Of a stretch of DNA of 63,296 nt, positions 13,694-24,569 are shown piece after piece (the stretch's first letter is position 1; every line of letters begins with the position of its first letter). The stretch is from an uncultured Eudoraea sp. (GTDB lineage: Bacteria; Bacteroidota; Bacteroidia; Flavobacteriales; Flavobacteriaceae): contig NZ_CAMYIP010000051.1 of assembly GCF_947258525.1 (NCBI RefSeq), forward strand, positions 1-63,296. Direction: 5' to 3'. A program made the translations under genes and the position numbers. The notes below the pieces were generated by a model, which searched no databases, was not told where the DNA came from, and worked only from the letters and a program-made list of their open reading frames with translations.

Positions 13694-14272
13694 ATGAAAA
13701 AGAATGTATTAAGTCTGGCACTGGCCATAGTTTTTGGAGCAACAGCGGTTGCAAACACTTCAATTGATAAGGAAAAGAAAGAAGTAAAAGCTAATGAAAG
13801 TAAAGTTACCTGGAAAGCTTACAAAGTAACAGGATCTCATACCGGTACTGTAAACCTAAAATCCGGTGCATTAATGTTTGACGAAGGCAAACTTACAGGT
13901 GGAGAATTCGAAGTAGATATGACATCTTTGATCTCAACGGATCTTGAAGGAGAATACAAAGGTAAATTAGAAGGACATCTTAAGTCTGATGATTTTTTTG
14001 GTGTAGAGAATCATCCCAATTCTACTTTAGTTTTTACAAATGTAGAGGCCAGTGGAAAAAATTCTTATGAAGTAAAGGGTGATCTCACTATTAAAGGTAT
14101 AACAAAGCCTGTAACTTTTGACGTATCTATTTATGGAAGTAAGGCTACAGCTACTTTAAAAGTAGACAGAGCACAATACGATGTTAAGTATGGCTCCGGT
14201 AGTTTCTTCGATGATCTGGGTGATAAAACAATCTATGATGAATTTGATCTTGTAGTAGATTTGGAATTCTAA
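13694..14272 (+). CDS. YceI family lipid-binding protein
   Basis: A 192-residue protein starting MKKNVLSLALAIVFGATAVAN, a signal peptide, so it is periplasmic. The YceI lipocalin-like barrel is evident: VTWKAYKVTGSHTGTVNLKSG, a central GHLKSDDFFGVENHPNSTLVFTN, then GDLTIKGITKPVTFDVSIYG. YceI proteins bind polyisoprenoid or other amphiphiles. The open frame extends 36 codons upstream into the nitroreductase end but lacks a signal there. A strong terminator follows. Confidence 0.93.
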   Translation: MKKNVLSLALAIVFGATAVANTSIDKEKKEVKANESKVTWKAYKVTGSHTGTVNLKSGALMFDEGKLTGGEFEVDMTSLISTDLEGEYKGKLEGHLKSDDFFGVENHPNSTLVFTNVEASGKNSYEVKGDLTIKGITKPVTFDVSIYGSKATATLKVDRAQYDVKYGSGSFFDDLGDKTIYDEFDLVVDLEF

Positions 14273-14293
14273 GAACGTTTAGTTCCCTCTTTA

Positions 14294-14328
14294 AATCCTG
14301 AATATGATCATATTCAGGATTTTTTTTT
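14294..14328 (+). terminator. Rho-independent terminator after yceI
   Basis: A perfect 28-bp palindrome (14294-14321, core CCTGAATATGATCATATTCAGG) is followed by eight T residues. It ends the marR-nitroreductase-yceI operon. Confidence 0.9.
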
Positions 14329-14545
14329 GATAACGTCCAAAATAATAGGTGAATTCGTCAAAATTATTTTAATCTAAATGCCTGATTTTTCTCAGATAAT
14401 GTTCAATTCAGTAACAATACAATATGGCTATTTAAATCCTACCTGGACGGATAATACACTATTCACTCCTATTGCTTAAAACCTACTTAACAACTTATGA
14501 AGTTTTATATACACAAAAAAATCGGTGGAATTAGCGCTAAAACTT

Positions 14546-14553
14546 TATTTTTG
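14546..14553 (+). promoter_or_regulatory. Possible -7 element of the arylsulfotransferase gene
   Basis: TATTTTTG matches TAnnTTTG and lies 14 bases before the ATG. No TTG is present at the -33 distance. The rest of the 239-base gap after the yceI terminator shows nothing recognisable. Confidence 0.4.
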
Positions 14554-14567
14554 AACAAAAATATAAT

Positions 14568-16109
14568 ATGGTATTTAAGGCTTTTTCTCGCTTAGCAGGG
14601 TCATTAATTTTTATATTACTTCTTCTTAGTAGTTGCGGCTCCAAATTTGAATATTCCATAAAATCTACTTTAAACCCTTACAATATATCCCCATTAACTG
14701 CTCTTTTAGAAATTGAAACCGAAAAACCATGCAACGTTACCGTTAAGGTTCTGGGTGAGATTCCTGTAGAACAAACTTTCAATTTTAATGCCGCTGATCT
14801 TGAGATTCCGGTAGTTGGTTTATACCCCAATACTTTAAATAGTGTAGTTGTTACAATGGCTTACGAAGGAGGACAAGTTATAGATACCATTGAAATCAAA
14901 ACAGAAAATACACCCAGTCATTTTCCTGATATTACCGTCAACAAGCTAAATAGGGATGAAATGGAACTGGGTATGCACGGTTGTGACCTTCATTTTGCAA
15001 ACAATGGCAAATTTAATTCCGGTCCTATTATTTTTGATGACCAGGGCCAGGTTAGATGGTATCTTGATCTGAGTTTTGCGGGTAAAATGGTTAGCCCGTT
15101 TCACCGACTTAAGGACGGAACAATATTAATGGTCAGCAGGCATACTATTTATGAATTTGATATGTTGGGCAAACCTCTAAAAGAAACTAAAATAAATACA
15201 AATTATGGCATGCACCATGATGTGCTTGTTTTGCCGGACGGAAATTTACTCGCATGTGTTGGTATTAGAGGACAATTTATAAGCCTTGATGGTAAGAAGG
15301 TTAAATCTGATAGTGATTTTATCACTGCCATTGACCGTAAAAGTGGCAAAATTTTGCGGGTATGGGATTTGGCCAAAAATTTAGATGTGAGTAGAAAAGA
15401 TCTTAATTTTTTTAGACCAGGAGATTGGTTACATATGAATGGGTTGGCTTTTAATCCAAGTGATAATTCAATTATCGTATCCGGGAAAAACCAGGGATTA
15501 ATAAAAATTTCCTGGAATGATAATCTGGAATGGATACTGGCGCCACATAAAGGTTGGGGGAAATCTGGCCGGGATGGAGCCGGTTTCGACACTAAACCAT
15601 TTTTACTAACCGCTGTTGATGCTGAAGGGAAACCGTACCGGAGGAGCGTTCAGGATGGTAGTGATAGTGCTGAGGATTTTGACTTTCCCTGGGGATTGCA
15701 TGCACCATTGCTATTACCCAATGGCAATGTTATGGTATTTGACAACGGATTCTTCAGGCATTTTGAAGATAACGTCCACTATTCCCGTGCGGTTGAATAT
15801 AAGATAAATGAAAAGGATAAAACCGCAGAACAAGTATGGCAATATGGCAAGGAAAGAGGAGAGGAATTTTTCTCGACCATTGTTAGTGATGTGGATTATC
15901 TGTACAATTCAAATAATGTACTGGTAACTGCAGGTTATCTAAAAAAAGGAACAAAATTATCTGCCAAAATCGTTGAAGTAGACTATGAGACAGGGAACGA
16001 GGTTTTTGAAGCAACACTAGATTTGAAAAGTGAGAATGGCAATAAAACTGGTTCCTGGGGTCAAACAGATATTTTATACAGATCTGAACGCATGGAACTT
16101 AAGTATTGA
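14568..16109 (+). CDS. Arylsulfotransferase (ASST) family lipoprotein
   Basis: A 513-residue protein related to bacterial arylsulfate sulfotransferases, which move a sulfuryl group between phenolic compounds in the periplasm. The N-terminus is a lipoprotein signal (FILLLLSSC, Cys23). An Ig-like arylsulfotransferase N-domain follows, then a beta-propeller with the His-containing blades MHHDVLVLPDGNLL, DWLHMNGLAFNPSDNSIIVS and FPWGLHAPLLLPNGNVMVFDNG. These His residues resemble the sulfate-binding and sulfohistidine sites of the family, but I cannot assign the catalytic one. No DsbL/DsbI partner lies nearby. Substrate unknown. Confidence 0.85.
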   Translation: MVFKAFSRLAGSLIFILLLLSSCGSKFEYSIKSTLNPYNISPLTALLEIETEKPCNVTVKVLGEIPVEQTFNFNAADLEIPVVGLYPNTLNSVVVTMAYEGGQVIDTIEIKTENTPSHFPDITVNKLNRDEMELGMHGCDLHFANNGKFNSGPIIFDDQGQVRWYLDLSFAGKMVSPFHRLKDGTILMVSRHTIYEFDMLGKPLKETKINTNYGMHHDVLVLPDGNLLACVGIRGQFISLDGKKVKSDSDFITAIDRKSGKILRVWDLAKNLDVSRKDLNFFRPGDWLHMNGLAFNPSDNSIIVSGKNQGLIKISWNDNLEWILAPHKGWGKSGRDGAGFDTKPFLLTAVDAEGKPYRRSVQDGSDSAEDFDFPWGLHAPLLLPNGNVMVFDNGFFRHFEDNVHYSRAVEYKINEKDKTAEQVWQYGKERGEEFFSTIVSDVDYLYNSNNVLVTAGYLKKGTKLSAKIVEVDYETGNEVFEATLDLKSENGNKTGSWGQTDILYRSERMELKY

Positions 16110-16175
16110 GCATTCATATTGCTGTAAGCACATTAGTAATCTTACCATTTGGTTCTATATTTCTCTAAAATTGAT

Positions 16176-16205
16176 TTGTATTTAAAAAATTCCTTTCTAT
16201 ATTTG
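16176..16205 (+). promoter_or_regulatory. Promoter of the trp operon
   Basis: TTG (16176-16178), exactly 19 bases, then TATATTTG (16198-16205): a full match to the Bacteroidota consensus. Start is expected at about 16208-16211, at or just before the ATG of the leader peptide, so the leader transcript may be leaderless. Confidence 0.8.
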
Positions 16206-16210
16206 GCTCA

Positions 16211-16267
16211 ATGAATGTTAGGATAGTCAATACTTGGTGGTGGAATAACTTACGTTTAACGTCGTGA
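16211..16267 (+). CDS. trpL: trp operon leader peptide with three consecutive Trp codons
   Basis: An 18-codon open frame encodes MNVRIVNTWWWNNLRLTS. Codons 9-11 (16235-16243) are TGG TGG TGG, in a window where Trp is rare. It begins at the predicted transcription start, and its stop (16265-16267) lies 29 bases before a strong terminator, with trpE 110 bases after the stop. That is the arrangement of a ribosome-mediated attenuator: ribosomes starved for Trp-tRNA would stall at codons 9-11. It is too short for routine gene finding. No Shine-Dalgarno sequence precedes it. Confidence 0.85.
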   Translation: MNVRIVNTWWWNNLRLTS

Positions 16268-16327
16268 GCTAAGCATCATTGTAGTATTACTATACGAAAA
16301 GGCTTGTCTATCACGACAAGCCTTTTT
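16261..16327 (+). promoter_or_regulatory. trp attenuator (terminator and candidate antiterminator)
   Basis: The terminator is a perfect 12-bp stem, 16297-16308 (AAAAGGCTTGTC) with 16315-16326, loop TATCAC, ending in T residues. The alternative pairs GTCGTGA (16261-16267, including the leader stop codon) with TCACGAC (16311-16317), and AAGC (16271-16274) with GCTT (16302-16305), nested and taking bases from both terminator arms. A ribosome stalled on the Trp codons would leave 16261-16274 free; one reaching the stop would cover it and allow termination. Pairing is inferred by eye, not by folding. Confidence 0.75.
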
Positions 16328-16377
16328 GATTTTTCAGAAATATATATATAGTATCAAATTCTAAATTTTAACAGAAT

Positions 16378-17775
16378 ATGGCATATGAACTTAAAACATA
16401 TTATAAAAAGATACTGGCTGATACCATTACCCCTGTCAGCGTATATCTAAAAATTCGTGATAAGTTTCCCAATAGTATACTTTTGGAAAGTAGTGATTAC
16501 AGGGCAAATGACAATACCTTCTCCTATATCTGTAGCAATCCAATAGCTTCTATCAAAGTAAAGGATGAAAAAATTACACTGTTATTTCCGGATAAATCTG
16601 TTAAGGAAATAGCTATAAACAACAAGAACGATGTCGTAGATATTATACATAATTTCAGTCAAGAGTTCAAAACAGAAACCAATGGCTTTAAATTTATTAA
16701 TAATGGCCTGTTTGGTTATATGTCATATGATGCCGTCAGATACTTTGAAGATATCTCAATTTCAAAAAAAGATGGTGCCCTTGATATTCCTGATATTTAT
16801 TATGCAGTTTACCAAAATATAATAGCTATTAATCATTTTAAGAATGAGGCTTATATCTTTGCCCATTGCTATAATTCAGATAATAATATTTCTGAAATTG
16901 AACAGCTGCTTAACATAAGAAATTTCGCGTCCTACAATTTTAGAAAAGAGGGTTCGGCCTCATCAAACTTAAATGATGAAGATTATAAAGAACACGTAGC
17001 ACTGGCTAAAAAACATTGTAAAAGGGGTGATGTTTTTCAATTAGTCCTTTCAAGAAGGTTTTCACAAGGGTTTAAAGGCGATGAATTTAATGTTTACAGG
17101 GCCCTGCGCTCCATTAATCCATCTCCATATCTGTTCTATTTTGACTATGGGGACTTTAAAATCTTTGGCAGTTCACCTGAAGCTCAATTAATAGTGAAAG
17201 ACGGAAAGGCAGAAATACATCCGATTGCCGGTACTTTCAAAAGAACAGGTAATGATGAAGAAGATGCATTACTAGCCAAAAAACTAACAGAAGATGAAAA
17301 GGAAAATAGCGAACACGTTATGCTGGTAGACCTTGCGCGTAATGATCTGAGCAGACATGGGAATATGGTAAATGTTGAAAATTACAGGGAGGTACAATTC
17401 TTTTCACATGTTATTCATCTCGTTTCAAAAGTTACTGGGCAAAAGAAAAAAGAAACTCCTACTATGAAAGTGGTGGCAGACACATTCCCTGCAGGCACCC
17501 TCAGTGGTGCTCCCAAACATATGGCAATGCAACTCATTGAGAAATATGAGACCACTAATAGGGATTATTACGGTGGTGCAATCGGTTTTATGGATTTTAA
17601 CGGAGATTTTAATCACGCCATAATGATACGTACCTTTTTAAGTAAGAATCACCAACTTCACTTTCAGGCAGGAGCGGGATTGGTAGCTGCCTCTGAGCCG
17701 GAAAAAGAGCTGCAGGAAACATATAATAAATTGGGAGCTCTTAACAAAGCCCTCGAAATTGCAGAAACTATCTGA
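16378..17775 (+). CDS. trpE: Anthranilate synthase component I
   Basis: A 465-residue TrpE converting chorismate to anthranilate with ammonia supplied by TrpG. The N-terminal domain carries LLES (residues 35-38), the motif linked to feedback inhibition by Trp. The chorismate-binding half has FGSSPEAQL, HPIAGTFKRTG, LVDLARND and FPAGTLSGAPKHMA. The length is typical. It is the first structural gene of trpEGDCFBA, after the attenuator; the gap to trpG is 19 bases. Confidence 0.97.
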   Translation: MAYELKTYYKKILADTITPVSVYLKIRDKFPNSILLESSDYRANDNTFSYICSNPIASIKVKDEKITLLFPDKSVKEIAINNKNDVVDIIHNFSQEFKTETNGFKFINNGLFGYMSYDAVRYFEDISISKKDGALDIPDIYYAVYQNIIAINHFKNEAYIFAHCYNSDNNISEIEQLLNIRNFASYNFRKEGSASSNLNDEDYKEHVALAKKHCKRGDVFQLVLSRRFSQGFKGDEFNVYRALRSINPSPYLFYFDYGDFKIFGSSPEAQLIVKDGKAEIHPIAGTFKRTGNDEEDALLAKKLTEDEKENSEHVMLVDLARNDLSRHGNMVNVENYREVQFFSHVIHLVSKVTGQKKKETPTMKVVADTFPAGTLSGAPKHMAMQLIEKYETTNRDYYGGAIGFMDFNGDFNHAIMIRTFLSKNHQLHFQAGAGLVAASEPEKELQETYNKLGALNKALEIAETI

Positions 17776-17794
17776 AAAGGATAATAACTAAGTC

Positions 17795-18358
17795 ATGAAC
17801 AGAATACTGGTAATAGATAATTACGATAGCTTTACATATAACCTGGTGCATTATCTTGAGGATTTGGGTTGTGAGGTGGTTGTTAAGCGTAATGACCAAC
17901 TAAAGTTAGAGGAAGTAGATGAGTTTGAGAAAATAGTACTTTCACCAGGTCCCGGAATTCCTGATGAAGCAGGGCTTCTTAAAGAAATTATTGCTAAATA
18001 TGCCCCAACAAAAAGCATATTTGGAGTATGTCTTGGACAACAGGCTATTGGGGAAGTTTTTGGTGGCAAATTGATAAATTTAGACGAAGTATATCACGGG
18101 ATAGCCACAAAAATAAACCTTGAAAAAGAAGAACCATTATTTGAAGGGCTGCCAGGAGAAATTGTAGTAGGCAGATATCATTCCTGGGTTGTTGATCCGA
18201 AACTACCCGATGTCCTTGAAGCCACTTCATTCGATGAAAATGGACAATTGATGTCTTTGAGACATAAATCTTATGACGTTTGTGCCGTTCAGTTTCATCC
18301 CGAATCCGTACTTACTCCAGAAGGCAAACAAATTCTTAAAAATTGGCTGAATAACTAA
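17795..18358 (+). CDS. trpG: Anthranilate synthase component II (glutamine amidotransferase)
   Basis: A 187-residue class I glutamine amidotransferase releasing ammonia from glutamine for TrpE. The start MNRILVIDNYDSFTYNLVHYL is typical. The nucleophile is Cys79 in FGVCLGQQAIGE, and the catalytic His-x-Glu lies in QFHPESVLT. It is a stand-alone domain, not fused to TrpD as in enterobacteria. In some bacteria TrpG also serves folate synthesis; context here points to Trp. Confidence 0.96.
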   Translation: MNRILVIDNYDSFTYNLVHYLEDLGCEVVVKRNDQLKLEEVDEFEKIVLSPGPGIPDEAGLLKEIIAKYAPTKSIFGVCLGQQAIGEVFGGKLINLDEVYHGIATKINLEKEEPLFEGLPGEIVVGRYHSWVVDPKLPDVLEATSFDENGQLMSLRHKSYDVCAVQFHPESVLTPEGKQILKNWLNN

Positions 18359-18394
18359 TTAAACTGTTTGTGATTCACTATAAACTTAGCACAA

Positions 18395-19387
18395 ATGAAA
18401 GAGATTCTAAATAAATTGATTAATCATGACATGCTCTCCAAGGAGGATGCTAAACAGGTATTGGTAAATATTGCAAAAGGTACTTATAACAATAGTCAGA
18501 TTGCAGCATTTCTTACGGTGTACATGATGCGCAGTATTACCATAGAAGAATTAGAAGGGTTTCGGGATGCACTCTTAGAGCTATGTCTGGCCATAGATTT
18601 GTCTGAATACAATCCAATTGATTTATGCGGAACGGGTGGTGACGGCAAGGATACCTTTAATATTTCTACGCTGGCATCCTTTGTAACGGCGGGAGCCGGA
18701 ATTAAAGTAACCAAACATGGCAATTACGGAGTATCGTCTACCTGCGGGAGCAGTAATGTTATGGAATTTTTAGGTGTAAAATTCAGTAATGAGGAGGATT
18801 TTCTGAGAAAGTCTATGGACGAAGCCGGGATATGTGTATTACACGCTCCATTGTTTCATCCTGCTATGAAAAATGTGGCCCCAATACGCCGGGAACTGGC
18901 AGTGAAGACATTTTTCAATATGCTGGGACCCATGGTGAACCCTGCTTTTCCTCAAAATCAAATAGTTGGTGTTTTTAATTTGGAATTGGCACGTATGTAT
19001 GGGTATCTCTATCAGAACACGGATAAAAAATATACGGTTCTTCACGCACTTGACGGGTATGATGAGATTTCATTGACAGGTAGCACCAAAACTATTTCCA
19101 ATAATACTGAGGCTATTCTAAACCCTTCAGATTTTGGGGTAGAAAGTGTAATGGAAAGCGAAATAGAAGGAGGTGAAAGTATTGACAAATCTGCTCAGAT
19201 ATTTATGGATATTTTGCAAGGTAAAGGCACAGAAGCACAAAACAATGTGGTCTGTGCAAATGCAGGGGTAGCTATCGCCACAGTTCTGGATATTAATCCA
19301 AAAGAAGGATTTGAAAAAGCTAAAGAATCTCTCCTAAACAGAAATGGCCTTAATGCCCTAAAAAAACTCCAGCAATTAAGTAACTGA
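18395..19387 (+). CDS. trpD: Anthranilate phosphoribosyltransferase
   Basis: A 330-residue enzyme joining anthranilate to PRPP. It shows the PRPP/Mg site DLCGTGGDGKDTFNIST, the loop KHGNYGVSSTCGSSNVMEFLG and NMLGPMVNPAFPQNQIVGVF. The final stop codon overlaps the trpC start by one base (TGATG), suggesting translational coupling. It is third in the trp operon. Confidence 0.96.
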   Translation: MKEILNKLINHDMLSKEDAKQVLVNIAKGTYNNSQIAAFLTVYMMRSITIEELEGFRDALLELCLAIDLSEYNPIDLCGTGGDGKDTFNISTLASFVTAGAGIKVTKHGNYGVSSTCGSSNVMEFLGVKFSNEEDFLRKSMDEAGICVLHAPLFHPAMKNVAPIRRELAVKTFFNMLGPMVNPAFPQNQIVGVFNLELARMYGYLYQNTDKKYTVLHALDGYDEISLTGSTKTISNNTEAILNPSDFGVESVMESEIEGGESIDKSAQIFMDILQGKGTEAQNNVVCANAGVAIATVLDINPKEGFEKAKESLLNRNGLNALKKLQQLSN

Positions 19388-20172
19388 TGGATATATTAGA
19401 AAAAATAGTTGTCGATAAAAAGAGAGAATTACACCTTAAAAAAAATGTAATCCCTCTCAAGCAATTAGAGACTTCATTCCTCTTCCAAAGGGCAACTCAA
19501 TCCCTGGCTAGTGCTCTGAGAAATAGTAAAACCGGTGTTATTGCCGAGCACAAAAGAAGGTCTCCTTCCAAATCTGTGATCAATCAGAATGAAAGTGTGC
19601 AGGATATTGCCATAGGATATATGAATGCTGGTGCGAGTGGTATGTCCGTATTAACAGATGCAAAATATTTTGGAGGATCTCTGGACGATTTAATATTAGC
19701 CAGGGCAGCAGTAGATTTTCCGCTATTAAGAAAGGAATTTATCATAGACGAATACCAAGTCATAGAAGCTCGCGCTTACGGAGCTGATACTATTTTGCTT
19801 ATTGCTGCTATTTTGACAAGAAAACAAATAAAAGTTTTATCAGAATTATCGAAGAGTTTGGGAATGGACGTATTACTGGAAGTTCACAATGAAGAAGAAC
19901 TGGTTAAATCAATAATGCCCAGTTTGGATTTATTGGGAGTAAATAATCGCAACCTTAAAACCTTCAAAGTAGACTTGGAAACCAGCATATCTCTTTCGCA
20001 ACAGATCCCTAATGAATTTGTAAAGGTATCGGAAAGTGGTATTAGCTCTGTTGATGCGATTAAAATGCTAAGAGAATTGGGTTACCAGGGTTTCTTAATT
20101 GGTGAAACCTTTATGAAAACATCAAACCCGGGTGAGAGTGCCGGGCAATTTATAAACCAGATGCAGAGATGA
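19387..20172 (+). CDS. trpC: Indole-3-glycerol phosphate synthase
   Basis: A 261-residue TIM-barrel enzyme closing the indole ring from CdRP. Motifs include AEHKRRSPSKSVI, ADTILLIAAIL, LLGVNNRNLKTFKVDLE and VSESGISS. It is separate from TrpF, unlike the fused enterobacterial TrpCF. It overlaps trpD by 1 base and trpF by 4 bases (ATGA). Confidence 0.96.
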   Translation: MDILEKIVVDKKRELHLKKNVIPLKQLETSFLFQRATQSLASALRNSKTGVIAEHKRRSPSKSVINQNESVQDIAIGYMNAGASGMSVLTDAKYFGGSLDDLILARAAVDFPLLRKEFIIDEYQVIEARAYGADTILLIAAILTRKQIKVLSELSKSLGMDVLLEVHNEEELVKSIMPSLDLLGVNNRNLKTFKVDLETSISLSQQIPNEFVKVSESGISSVDAIKMLRELGYQGFLIGETFMKTSNPGESAGQFINQMQR

Positions 20173-20810
20173 AATTTAAGATCTGTGGAATGAAGGATAA
20201 TATTGGGGAGGTTGCAGCAATGCTGCCAGATTACCTTGGATTTATCTTTTGGGAGCCTTCCAAACGCTTTTTTGACGGTTCTATTCCTGAATTGGATAAG
20301 ACAATTAGTAAAGTTGGGGTTTTTGTTGATGCTAATATTGAAGAAATTTTAAGTCGCACAAAAAGATTTTCATTAAATGCGGTACAATTGCATGGGGATG
20401 AATCACCTGAATACTGTGCGAAACTAAAAGAGAAATTTAACAAGCAAAATATCAAAATTGATATTCTCAAGGTATTTAGCATAAAAGACAGTTTTGATTT
20501 TTCACAACTTGGTCCATTTGAGAAATCTGCTGATTTCTTTTTATTTGATACAAAGGGCAAGTTACCCGGTGGAAATGGATATCAATTTAACTGGGAAGTA
20601 CTAAAAGGATATCCATCTAAAAAACCCTATTTCCTTAGTGGAGGAATTGGGCCGGAGGAACTCAATAGTGTTTTGGATTTTCTTCAAAAAGAAGAATCTA
20701 AATATTGCCATGCTATCGATGTCAACAGTAAATTTGAAATAGCTCCTGGCCTGAAGGATATAGATAAATTAAATGAATTTAAGAATCGGTTGTTTAAAAC
20801 CAACTTATAA
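20169..20810 (+). CDS. trpF: Phosphoribosylanthranilate isomerase
   Basis: A 213-residue TIM-barrel enzyme performing the Amadori rearrangement of PRA to CdRP. It starts [11 protein letters not shown] with the catalytic Cys near residue 6, and carries [26 protein letters not shown] and [10 protein letters not shown]. It overlaps trpC by four bases, with trpB 14 bases downstream. Confidence 0.95.
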
Positions 20811-20824
20811 AAAAATATAAGAAT

Positions 20825-22006
20825 ATGACTTACAATGCTAATGAAAAAGGGTATTACGGACAGTTTGGAGGGGCATTTATCCCGGAAATGCTGTACCCGA
20901 ATACTGAAGAGCTACGGCAAAATTATATTCAGATTATGGAGGAACCCTCTTTCAAAAAAGAGTTCCATGCATTATTAAAAGACTATGTAGGAAGGCCCAC
21001 GCCGCTCTATTTTGCTAATCGCCTTTCGGATAAGTATAAAACGAAAATTTACCTGAAAAGAGAAGATTTATGTCATACAGGTGCCCATAAGGTCAATAAT
21101 ACCATTGGGCAAATATTAATGGCCAAAAGACTGGGTAAAACAAGAATCATCGCAGAAACAGGAGCCGGGCAACACGGGGTAGCTACCGCTACAGTTTGTG
21201 CACTTATGGGAATTGACTGTGTGGTCTATATGGGCGAAATAGATATTGCCCGTCAGGCACCAAACGTGGCCAGAATGAAAATGTTAGGAGCAGAAGTAAG
21301 GCCTGCGCTATCGGGAAGCAGGACACTGAAAGACGCTACAAATGAGGCTATACGCGACTGGATAAACAATCCTGTAGACACGCATTATATCATAGGTTCT
21401 GTTGTTGGCCCGCACCCCTACCCCGATATGGTAGCCAGATTTCAATCGGTAATTTCAGAGGAAATACAGTCTCAGCTCTTGGAAAAAGAAGGTACTCCTA
21501 ACCCTGATTATTTAATAGCCTGCGTGGGTGGTGGAAGCAATGCCGCTGGTACGTATTATCATTATCTGGATAATATGGATGTAGGGATCATTGCAGTGGA
21601 GGCAGCCGGTAAAGGAATTCATTCCGGAGAAAGTGCTGCAACTTCTGCTCTGGGTAAGGTTGGAATTATTCATGGCAGTAAAACGTTGCTTATGCAAACA
21701 CAAGATGGTCAGATAACTGAACCCTATTCTATTTCTGCGGGTCTTGATTATCCGGGTGTTGGACCTATGCATGCCCATTTGTACACCTCCGGGAGGGGAG
21801 AATTTATTTCAGTTACCGATGATGAAGCCATGACAGCGGGATTATTAGTATCTCAATTGGAAGGCATTATACCTGCAATAGAAACTTCCCATGCTTTTGC
21901 CATATTTGACCATAGAAAATTTAAACCAGACGACATTTTAGTCATTAATCTCTCGGGAAGAGGTGATAAAGATTTGCAGACCTATATAGATTATTTCAAA
22001 TTATAA
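20825..22006 (+). CDS. trpB: Tryptophan synthase beta subunit
   Basis: A 393-residue PLP enzyme making Trp from indole and serine. The PLP lysine is K89 in [10 protein letters not shown], the Gln-Glu region [15 protein letters not shown] is intact, and the phosphate-binding glycine loop is [15 protein letters not shown]. Length and motifs fit TrpB1, the partner of TrpA, which follows 14 bases downstream. Confidence 0.97.
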
Positions 22007-22020
22007 TTGGTTCCCATAAA

Positions 22021-22794
22021 ATGAAGAACAGAATTCAAAAAAAGCTGGAAGAAGATAAAAAACTGGTTTCCATTTATTTCTCAGCCGGTTATCCAAATCT
22101 AAACGATACAGTTTCCATTATTCAGGATCTGGAAACTAACGGTGTGGATATGATAGAAATAGGCTTGCCATTCAGTGATCCTCTGGCAGATGGCCCTACC
22201 ATTCAGGAAAGTTCTACCATAGCTTTAAAGAATGGTATGGGAACAGATTTACTTTTTGATCAATTAAAAGAAATAAGAAAAACCGTTTCAATACCCCTGA
22301 TCATTATGGGGTATTTTAATCCTGTCTTGCAGTATGGCGTAGAGAACTTTTGTAAAAAATGCCAGGAAATAGGTATAGATGGTCTTATCCTTCCGGATTT
22401 ACCTCTGGATGTTTACAAGGAAGAATATGAGACCATTTTTAAAAAGTATAACCTCATCAACATTTTTCTTATTACACCACAAACCAGCGAATCACGAATT
22501 TTACAAATAGATGATGCTTCAGATGGATTTATCTACATGGTTAGTTCGGCAAGCACAACCGGCGCTAAGCAAGGGTTTGGTGAAGAGCAGGATGCCTATT
22601 TTAAGAGAATTGCCTCAATGAATCTTAAAAATCCTCAAATTGTAGGATTTGGTATAAGTAACGCCCAAACCTTTAAACAGGCTACAAATACGGCAAAGGG
22701 AGCCATCATTGGCTCAGCTTTTATTAAAATGTTGTCGCAAAAAGGAACAGTTGGAATCTCGGAATTTATCCAAACAATTAAACCAGTATCATGA
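22021..22794 (+). CDS. trpA: Tryptophan synthase alpha subunit
   Basis: A 257-residue TIM-barrel subunit cleaving indole-3-glycerol phosphate to indole, which is channelled to TrpB. The signature MIEIGLPFSDPLADGPTIQ includes the catalytic Glu and Asp region, and the phosphate site FGISNAQ is present. Its stop overlaps the next start by four bases (ATGA). Confidence 0.96.
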   Translation: MKNRIQKKLEEDKKLVSIYFSAGYPNLNDTVSIIQDLETNGVDMIEIGLPFSDPLADGPTIQESSTIALKNGMGTDLLFDQLKEIRKTVSIPLIIMGYFNPVLQYGVENFCKKCQEIGIDGLILPDLPLDVYKEEYETIFKKYNLINIFLITPQTSESRILQIDDASDGFIYMVSSASTTGAKQGFGEEQDAYFKRIASMNLKNPQIVGFGISNAQTFKQATNTAKGAIIGSAFIKMLSQKGTVGISEFIQTIKPVS

Positions 22795-23021
22795 GCATGT
22801 TTAACGATTGGAAAATTATAATCTTGTTATGTTTAACTCTGGGATTGGCGCCTTTTTTTCCTGAACCTCATTTATGGGGTAAACTTAGATGGGTTATTGG
22901 CGGAAGTGTTGGGATGAAACCCATAGATTGGTTCGATCTTTTTTTCCATGGATTTCCATTTCTCCTTTTAATTCGTTTACTTGTTTTAAAATTAAAGTAC
23001 TTGATCAACTCCAAGAATTAA
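22791..23021 (+). CDS. Small membrane protein coupled to trpA
   Basis: A 76-residue protein with two hydrophobic stretches: WKIIILLCLTLGLAPFF near the N-terminus and FFHGFPFLLLIRLLVLKLKYLI near the C-terminus. The middle is PEPHLWGKLRWVIGGSVGMKPIDWFD. I recall similar small proteins in Flavobacteriaceae, sometimes loosely labelled as transporter-related, but the function is not known. The four-base overlap with trpA implies co-translation. A second ATG two codons downstream (22797) is possible. Confidence 0.7.
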   Translation: MSMFNDWKIIILLCLTLGLAPFFPEPHLWGKLRWVIGGSVGMKPIDWFDLFFHGFPFLLLIRLLVLKLKYLINSKN

Positions 23022-23054
23022 CAAAATTAAATCCTTATAAATTTACCTTACCGC

Positions 23055-24569
23055 ATGAAAAATTTAGCAACATGTTTATGTCTTTTATTATTTTGGATCA
23101 ACAATGCGCAAGAAGTAGAGGTTAAAGTTCAAGAAGCAGAGGTAAAAGCACAAGTCAGGCATACTATAGACGAGCTAAGAGAATTTATAGCAATCCCTAA
23201 CGATGCTTTAGATCATTCAGATATCAACAGAAATCTTTCTTGGCTCACTAAAAAATTCAATGAAAGAGGCTTTAATTCATCTGTGCTTCCCACCGAAGGT
23301 GAATCACTTTTTTTTGCGGCCCTTCCTATGCAAGATGACAAACCGACAATTCTATTTTATATGCATTTCGATGGGCAGTCTGTGGATCCCTCTAAATGGG
23401 ATCAGCCAGATCCTTATAAAGTAGTACTGAAAGCAAAGGAAAACGATACATGGAAAACACATTCATTCGATGATTTAAAGGAGGATGTAAATTATGATTG
23501 GCGCCTTTTTGGTCGTTCTACCTCAGATGACAAGGGACCAATTGTTATGTTTCTGAACACAATAGATCTTTTGAAGAAAAACAATGTAGAAATTCCTTTT
23601 AATGTAAAAGTAATATTAGACGGAGAGGAAGAAAAAAGTAGCGCACCCCTGCCAAAGGCTGTTAAAGAATATAGAGAATTGTTAGAAGCAGATTTTCTGA
23701 TCATATCAGATGGTCCTGTCCATTCTTCCGGTAATCCAACAATTGCGTATGGCGCAAGAGGAATAACTTCTTTAACCCTAACCACCTATGGCCCTATAAA
23801 TCCACAGCATAGTGGCCATTATGGCAATTATGCTCCTAATCCCGGGTTTCAATTGGCTCAGGTATTGGCGAGCATGAAAGATAAGGAGGGCAGAGTATTG
23901 ATTGAAGGATACTATGATGGCATTACTATAGACGAATCAACAAAGAATATACTAAATAGTGTGCCAGATGATGCCAATACAATTAATACCCACCTGGCTA
24001 TTAAACAACCCGAAAAAGTGGGCTCTTTTTATCAGGAAGCCCTGCAATATCCATCATTGAATATTAGGGGGTTATCTTCAGGATGGGTTGGTGAAAAAGC
24101 ACGTACCATAGTGCCTGAAAGTGCCACTGCTGAAATAGATATCAGGCTGGTCCCTGAAACTGATGGTAATCGACTGAAAAACCTTGTCAAAAAGCATATC
24201 GAAAATGAAGGGTATTTTGTAATGACCGATGTTCCGGATGTTAGTCAAAGAATGAAGCATGATAAGATCATATCCATTACCGAAGGTACAGTCACAGATG
24301 CGTTCAGGACAGATTTGGACAATCTGTATGGCAATTACCTTGTAGATACTTTTAAAAATACATTTTCAGAAGATGTTGTACAAATAAGGATCATGGGGGG
24401 TACTGTTCCAATTGCACCCTTTGTTAACGAACTAAAAATTCCAGCCTTTCTCGTCCCCCTCGTGAATCCCGATAATAATCAGCATAGCCCTAATGAAAAT
24501 TTAAAAATAGGGCAGATTGCCTACGGCATAGAAGTCTTTTATGGGATTTTAAGCAACAAAATGGAATAG
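23055..24569 (+). CDS. M20 family metallopeptidase, exported
   Basis: A 504-residue dizinc peptidase with an N-terminal signal peptide (MKNLATCLCLLLFWINNAQE). Zinc-ligand motifs are in order: YMHFDGQSVDP, RSTSDDKGPIVMF, DGEEEKSS with the catalytic Glu, and the late His in NQHSPNENL. The dimerisation (lid) domain lies between. It likely trims peptides or dipeptides in the periplasm. It is not obviously part of the trp unit: 33 bases separate it from the small membrane protein gene. Confidence 0.88.
   Translation: MKNLATCLCLLLFWINNAQEVEVKVQEAEVKAQVRHTIDELREFIAIPNDALDHSDINRNLSWLTKKFNERGFNSSVLPTEGESLFFAALPMQDDKPTILFYMHFDGQSVDPSKWDQPDPYKVVLKAKENDTWKTHSFDDLKEDVNYDWRLFGRSTSDDKGPIVMFLNTIDLLKKNNVEIPFNVKVILDGEEEKSSAPLPKAVKEYRELLEADFLIISDGPVHSSGNPTIAYGARGITSLTLTTYGPINPQHSGHYGNYAPNPGFQLAQVLASMKDKEGRVLIEGYYDGITIDESTKNILNSVPDDANTINTHLAIKQPEKVGSFYQEALQYPSLNIRGLSSGWVGEKARTIVPESATAEIDIRLVPETDGNRLKNLVKKHIENEGYFVMTDVPDVSQRMKHDKIISITEGTVTDAFRTDLDNLYGNYLVDTFKNTFSEDVVQIRIMGGTVPIAPFVNELKIPAFLVPLVNPDNNQHSPNENLKIGQIAYGIEVFYGILSNKME

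Follow-up and report, generated by a model that had tools for sequence, protein, structure and literature searches.

A Bacteroid-trp element, probably a transcription attenuator, with a predicted leaderless start upstream of trpE in an uncultured Eudoraea

The window analysed here, a stretch of 63,296 nucleotides from an uncultured Eudoraea sp., carries genes for tryptophan biosynthesis in the order trpEGDCFBA, 3' of an attenuator. The trpE gene lies at 16378-17775 on the + strand (best match TIGR00564, trpE_most, at 443.9 bits, below the strict cut-off of 517.7). It is followed by trpG, trpD, trpC, trpF, trpB, and trpA on the same strand at 17795-22794. The nearest TrpE relatives are from Flavobacteriaceae; the closest named one, 99% identical, comes from a Eudoraea MAG, in a listing that may omit records of the window's own genome. 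Downstream of trpA and on the same strand is a gene (23055-24569) that resembles M20-type dipeptidases, its best NCBIfam match being below cut-off. Passages of a paper on F. psychrophilum describe a protease likely co-transcribed with the trp genes (PMC6414381), to be compared with this M20-like gene. Elsewhere in the window, five tRNA genes occupy 974-2848 on the - strand, four of them within 2346-2848.

The region before trpE holds three obvious elements, all on the + strand: a promoter, a short reading frame, and an intrinsic terminator. The promoter comprises a -33 element, TTTG (16175-16178), and a -7 box, TATATTTG (16198-16205), of the Bacteroidota sigma-A type TAnnTTTG (consensus from passages of PMC9723704 and PMC6847099). 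The two are separated by exactly 19 nt, as the preliminary description had claimed. Its 18-codon frame with three consecutive TGG codons is likewise present: trpL (16211-16267) starts with ATG at 16211, encodes the leader peptide MNVRIVNTWWWNNLRLTS, and ends with TGA at 16265-16267, and TGG TGG TGG at 16235-16243 forms codons 9-11. The terminator is a 14-pair stem-loop (16295-16328) followed by T-rich sequence. Here the earlier account was right about the element and wrong in setting it 110 bases before trpE; about 110 nt separate the leader stop from the trpE ATG at 16378, and the terminator ends about 50 nt before the gene.

These elements together belong to a known family. The Rfam model RF01692, "Bacteroid-trp," matches 16191-16308 over its full length (1-131) with 64 bits, against a cut-off of 49, and the model reports no second match in the own genome, for which 150 of the 915 candidates from a first look were scored. 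Like other Bacteroid-trp RNAs, the element fits the sequence and structure model above cut-off and precedes genes for Trp biosynthesis in a member of the Bacteroidota, and nothing excludes its membership. The attenuator itself was therefore correctly called and is already known, so the earlier surprise at finding one outside enterobacteria was unwarranted. A comparative study of attenuation by Lopatovskaya and colleagues from 2010, cited in PMC4833913, may also cover Bacteroidetes. The Bacteroid-trp RNA was published by Weinberg et al. in 2010 (PMC2864571, where it is listed in a table). A 2019 paper compares the element that precedes the trp operon of F. psychrophilum with the leader of E. 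coli and reads it as a trp attenuator (PMC6414381), and a transcriptome study of the same species finds, ahead of operons for amino-acid biosynthesis, strong signs of attenuation by leader peptides (PMC9723704). The passages of PMC2965389 and PMC4833913 that match the search terms make no mention of the Bacteroid-trp element.

RF01692 matches with E <= 0.001 occur in 189 of 249 genomes of the bacterial family (167 over the cut-off), in 30 of 60 relatives, and in 46 of 392 genomes drawn from the phylum, the own genome being counted each time. Sixty of the 249 family genomes have no match in a search whose filters lose weak matches. With the element present in 189 of these genomes, ribosome-mediated trp attenuation looks like the rule in one family that is not proteobacterial.

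A run of Trp codons is by itself unremarkable: TGGTGGTGG occurs on average 0.28 times per shuffled window, and at least once in 26 of 100 shuffles. It is the features in their conserved combination that go beyond chance. Among 181 matched loci (177 parsed by script; L019, L108, L122, and L144, missed by the ORF-plus-terminator rule, were read by eye and added), 177 have three TGG codons and the remaining four have two. Since these loci were fetched as RF01692 matches, part of the conservation follows from the selection wherever the model itself scores a feature; they were also taken mostly best-scoring first, so that weak elements are too few among them and genomes lacking one do not figure. 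The preliminary description had looked to related genomes to decide its case, and both the TGG run and the terminator are kept in relatives.

An alternative is that a protein or a tRNA controls the terminator directly (TrpR, TRAP, or T-box type), the leader ORF being incidental; in Firmicutes, trp genes are indeed attenuated through other sensors. This is very improbable here, given a TGG run that is near-invariant and keeps an almost constant spacing to the antiterminator. The own genome also contains no match to TrpR (PF01371) and none to the T-box model (RF00230) at E <= 0.001, a model that matches 5 of 14 control genomes.

The leader RNA (16210-16345) folds with -42.5 kcal/mol (z = -5.3), a value as low as which none of 200 shuffles reaches. 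The terminator ranks first among 10 terminator-like sites in 14000-23500, a region for which shuffles average 6.5. Covariation was scored in 125 of the 177 parsed loci, distinct and one per genus; in these, 7 of 10 terminator pairs show double changes, and none of 500 shuffles scores as high. The window fold also contains a 1:2 (pause, or anti-antiterminator) hairpin at 16223-16293 (+ strand) that spans the Trp codons and the 5' strand of the antiterminator. The RNAalifold consensus of 63 leaders gave the terminator alone, with no 1:2 helix, so this hairpin rests on the window fold.

An antiterminator is predicted as well. Its 5' strand, GUCGUGA (16261-16267, + strand), overlaps the trpL stop codon, and its 3' strand, UCACGAC (16311-16317, + strand), falls partly in the loop of the terminator and partly in its 3' arm. 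In nascent RNA extending from 16252 to 16318-16322, the two strands pair in the predicted fold, along with 16270-16274 and 16302-16306, at -17.8 kcal/mol. Once the RNA reaches 16324, the terminator becomes the better fold in the window. The antiterminator thus is not the minimum-energy structure after the terminator is made, and must win kinetically.

Comparison across loci supports this pairing. In the same 125 sequences, both partners have changed in 5 of 7 antiterminator pairs, a result that no shuffle out of 500 equals; the outermost pair, 16261:16317 in window numbering, is unpaired in 74 of them. When the pairing is slid by +3 as a control, the covariation score is similar (0.059 versus 0.056 for the antiterminator), but with 50% rather than 90% of cells paired and 3 rather than 10 double changes. 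Across 165 distinct sequences of the 177, duplexes between a locus's own two segments average -9.71 kcal/mol; shuffled segments give -3.2, and swapped partners -9.34, with none of 2000 permutations reaching the own-pair mean. The difference between own and swapped partners is small, 0.38 kcal/mol, because the segments are near-invariant.

Simulated folding of nascent RNA links the pairing to ribosome position. When the last Trp codon occupies the A site, all 177 loci form the antiterminator in at least one nascent state; when the stop codon does, 6 of 177 do. This contrast is partly geometric, because a ribosome on the stop codon removes much of segment 2. In silico, antiterminator and terminator exclude each other, and a ribosome on the stop codon hides the former. 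The antiterminator core lies 19-20 nt after the Trp codons at 164 of 181 loci, and the position of the stop codon varies more, a pattern that would fit if timing depends on the Trp codons.

This suggests a classical ribosome-mediated transcription attenuator, in which the supply of charged tRNA-Trp would set expression of trpEGDCFBA; the probability of this reading is put at roughly nine in ten. It is the best-supported reading of the locus, as the preliminary description had proposed, and draws on the conserved TGG run, the terminator, the covarying antiterminator, and the simulated nascent folding. Transcription would probably begin at the leader AUG or one base before it. When Trp is ample, the ribosome would reach the UGA at 16265 and cover 16261-16267, blocking the antiterminator; the hairpin at 16295-16328 would then fold and RNA polymerase would stop. 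When Trp is scarce, the ribosome would stall at codons 9-11, the last base of which is 17 nt before the antiterminator 5' strand. Both antiterminator helices could then form before the 3' arm of the terminator is complete, and transcription would run on into trpE. The parts of this model, their conservation, and the covariation of both helices come from sequence and its comparison across loci; what we infer is the start site, the ribosome footprint, the coupling of ribosome and polymerase, and the response to Trp in vivo.

The arrangement resembles E. coli trpL in its short, Trp-rich leader ORF, alternative RNA segments, and intrinsic terminator before trpE. It differs in having three adjacent Trp codons, where E. 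coli trpL has two, and a predicted 5' UTR of 0-1 nt; no homology is claimed. The leader peptide or the attenuated RNA might also act in trans, besides or instead of attenuation, a suggestion to which we give hardly any credence. It has a precedent only, peTrpL of Sinorhizobium meliloti (PMC7298713), and the leader peptides differ between loci in sequence and length except for WWW and a frequent N-T before it.

Beyond the attenuator, the comparison adds two things to the preliminary description: the antiterminator model with its covariation, which makes the terminator and antiterminator of the Bacteroid-trp element explicit, and a predicted leaderless start, a modest and testable extension. The latter comes from promoter spacing. 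The -7 box of the window is 5 nt from the leader start codon. Passages on F. johnsoniae take candidates with a box-to-start spacing of 4 or 5 nt as probable promoters (PMC6847099), and those on F. psychrophilum place -7 boxes at -12 to -5 (PMC9723704). By this published spacing the transcript would start at 16210-16211 (+ strand), on or beside the leader AUG; a 5' UTR of 0-1 nt would leave no Shine-Dalgarno site.

The same spacing recurs. A TAHHTTTG box precedes the leader at 174 of 181 loci, and none is found by that rule at the other seven. The distance from box to leader start is bimodal: exactly 5 nt at 37 of the 174 loci and 17-19 nt at 70; distances of 4 nt and of 6 nt are found at a single locus apiece, 7-12 nt at 29, 14-16 nt at 17, and longer ones at 19. 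Three loci at 5 nt start with GTG; all four TTG starts are at distances of at least 17 nt. A TTG lies 17-21 nt before the box at 148 of the 174 loci, compared with 10% in shuffles, and it is kept in 22 of the 26 genera of the 5-nt class. The 80 nearest named TrpE relatives, which partly repeat genomes of the 181-locus set, include 73 in which the rule picks up a leader. The distance is 4-6 nt in 51 of them, exactly 5 nt in 45 of these, and 7 nt in another 17. The other 7 relatives have no leader by the same rule, and 6 of these lack any TGGTGG in the 420 nt examined. On a trpE tree, the 4-6 nt class (38 loci, 27 genera) requires 8 changes, compared with a shuffled mean of 34.6, but the tree is weak (119 columns, 177 rows; 14 of 174 inner branches starred, with the starred branches forcing only 2 changes). 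Such clustering makes the state look inherited in a few lineages.

The opposing case is that the attenuator works on an mRNA that is not leaderless, transcription starting farther upstream or translation at another start codon. The start site is, after all, predicted from a spacing rule, and by the same rule the 17-19 nt spacing, the commonest outside the Eudoraea, Maribacter, and Zobellia group, would imply a leader some 12-15 nt long. In the phylum, moreover, only a minority of mRNAs are leaderless or have very short leaders: leaderless mRNAs make up 5.5% in F. psychrophilum (PMC9723704), leaders of at most 10 nt 13% in F. johnsoniae (PMC6847099), and 5' UTRs under 10 nt about 3.7% in B. theta. 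These published figures alone serve as the genome-wide comparison; a pattern scan of promoter-to-ATG spacing in the own genome, tried as a control, was rejected as mostly chance (69 matches, compared with 46 for the reversed pattern). This alternative has some weight on these grounds, yet the odds are against it, since the exact spacing recurs with its neighbors at 4 and 6 nt nearly empty and its TTG kept.

A leaderless form is thus a somewhat better than even prospect. In Eudoraea, Maribacter, Zobellia, Flagellimonas, and their kin, the trp attenuator would sit on a transcript whose first or second base begins the leader AUG (or GUG). Attenuation would then open with leaderless initiation, and this in bacteria that make no use of Shine-Dalgarno sites and rarely produce leaderless mRNAs. 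In many other members of the family, the same element would stand behind a leader of about 12-15 nt. If so, these are natural paired systems, the same attenuator with a 5' UTR of 0-1 or about 12-15 nt, in which to probe how, without Shine-Dalgarno sites, translation can begin soon enough to be coupled to transcription. The relevant passages on the Bacteroid-trp RNA do not mention a leaderless feature, and no leaderless attenuator in Bacteroidota appears among the matches listed from the open-licence literature (titles, openings of abstracts, and a few passages). The nearest leaderless precedent is the ilvBNC attenuator of C. glutamicum, in which, according to passages of PMC11857589 citing Morbach et al. 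(2000), transcription starts one nucleotide from the leader start codon and there is no ribosome binding site. It differs in phylum, operon, and amino acids, and no common ancestry is indicated.

Across the collection, trpE lies downstream of the attenuator at 178 of 181 loci. At L083, L097, and L102, all from Flavobacteriaceae, a small ORF of 98-100 codons follows the attenuator where trpE would be expected, in the short downstream stretch examined; its product looks like a GIY-YIG endonuclease-like protein. At L160 and L166, from other families of the same class, an ORF that resembles TrpB of the window stands between the attenuator and trpE.
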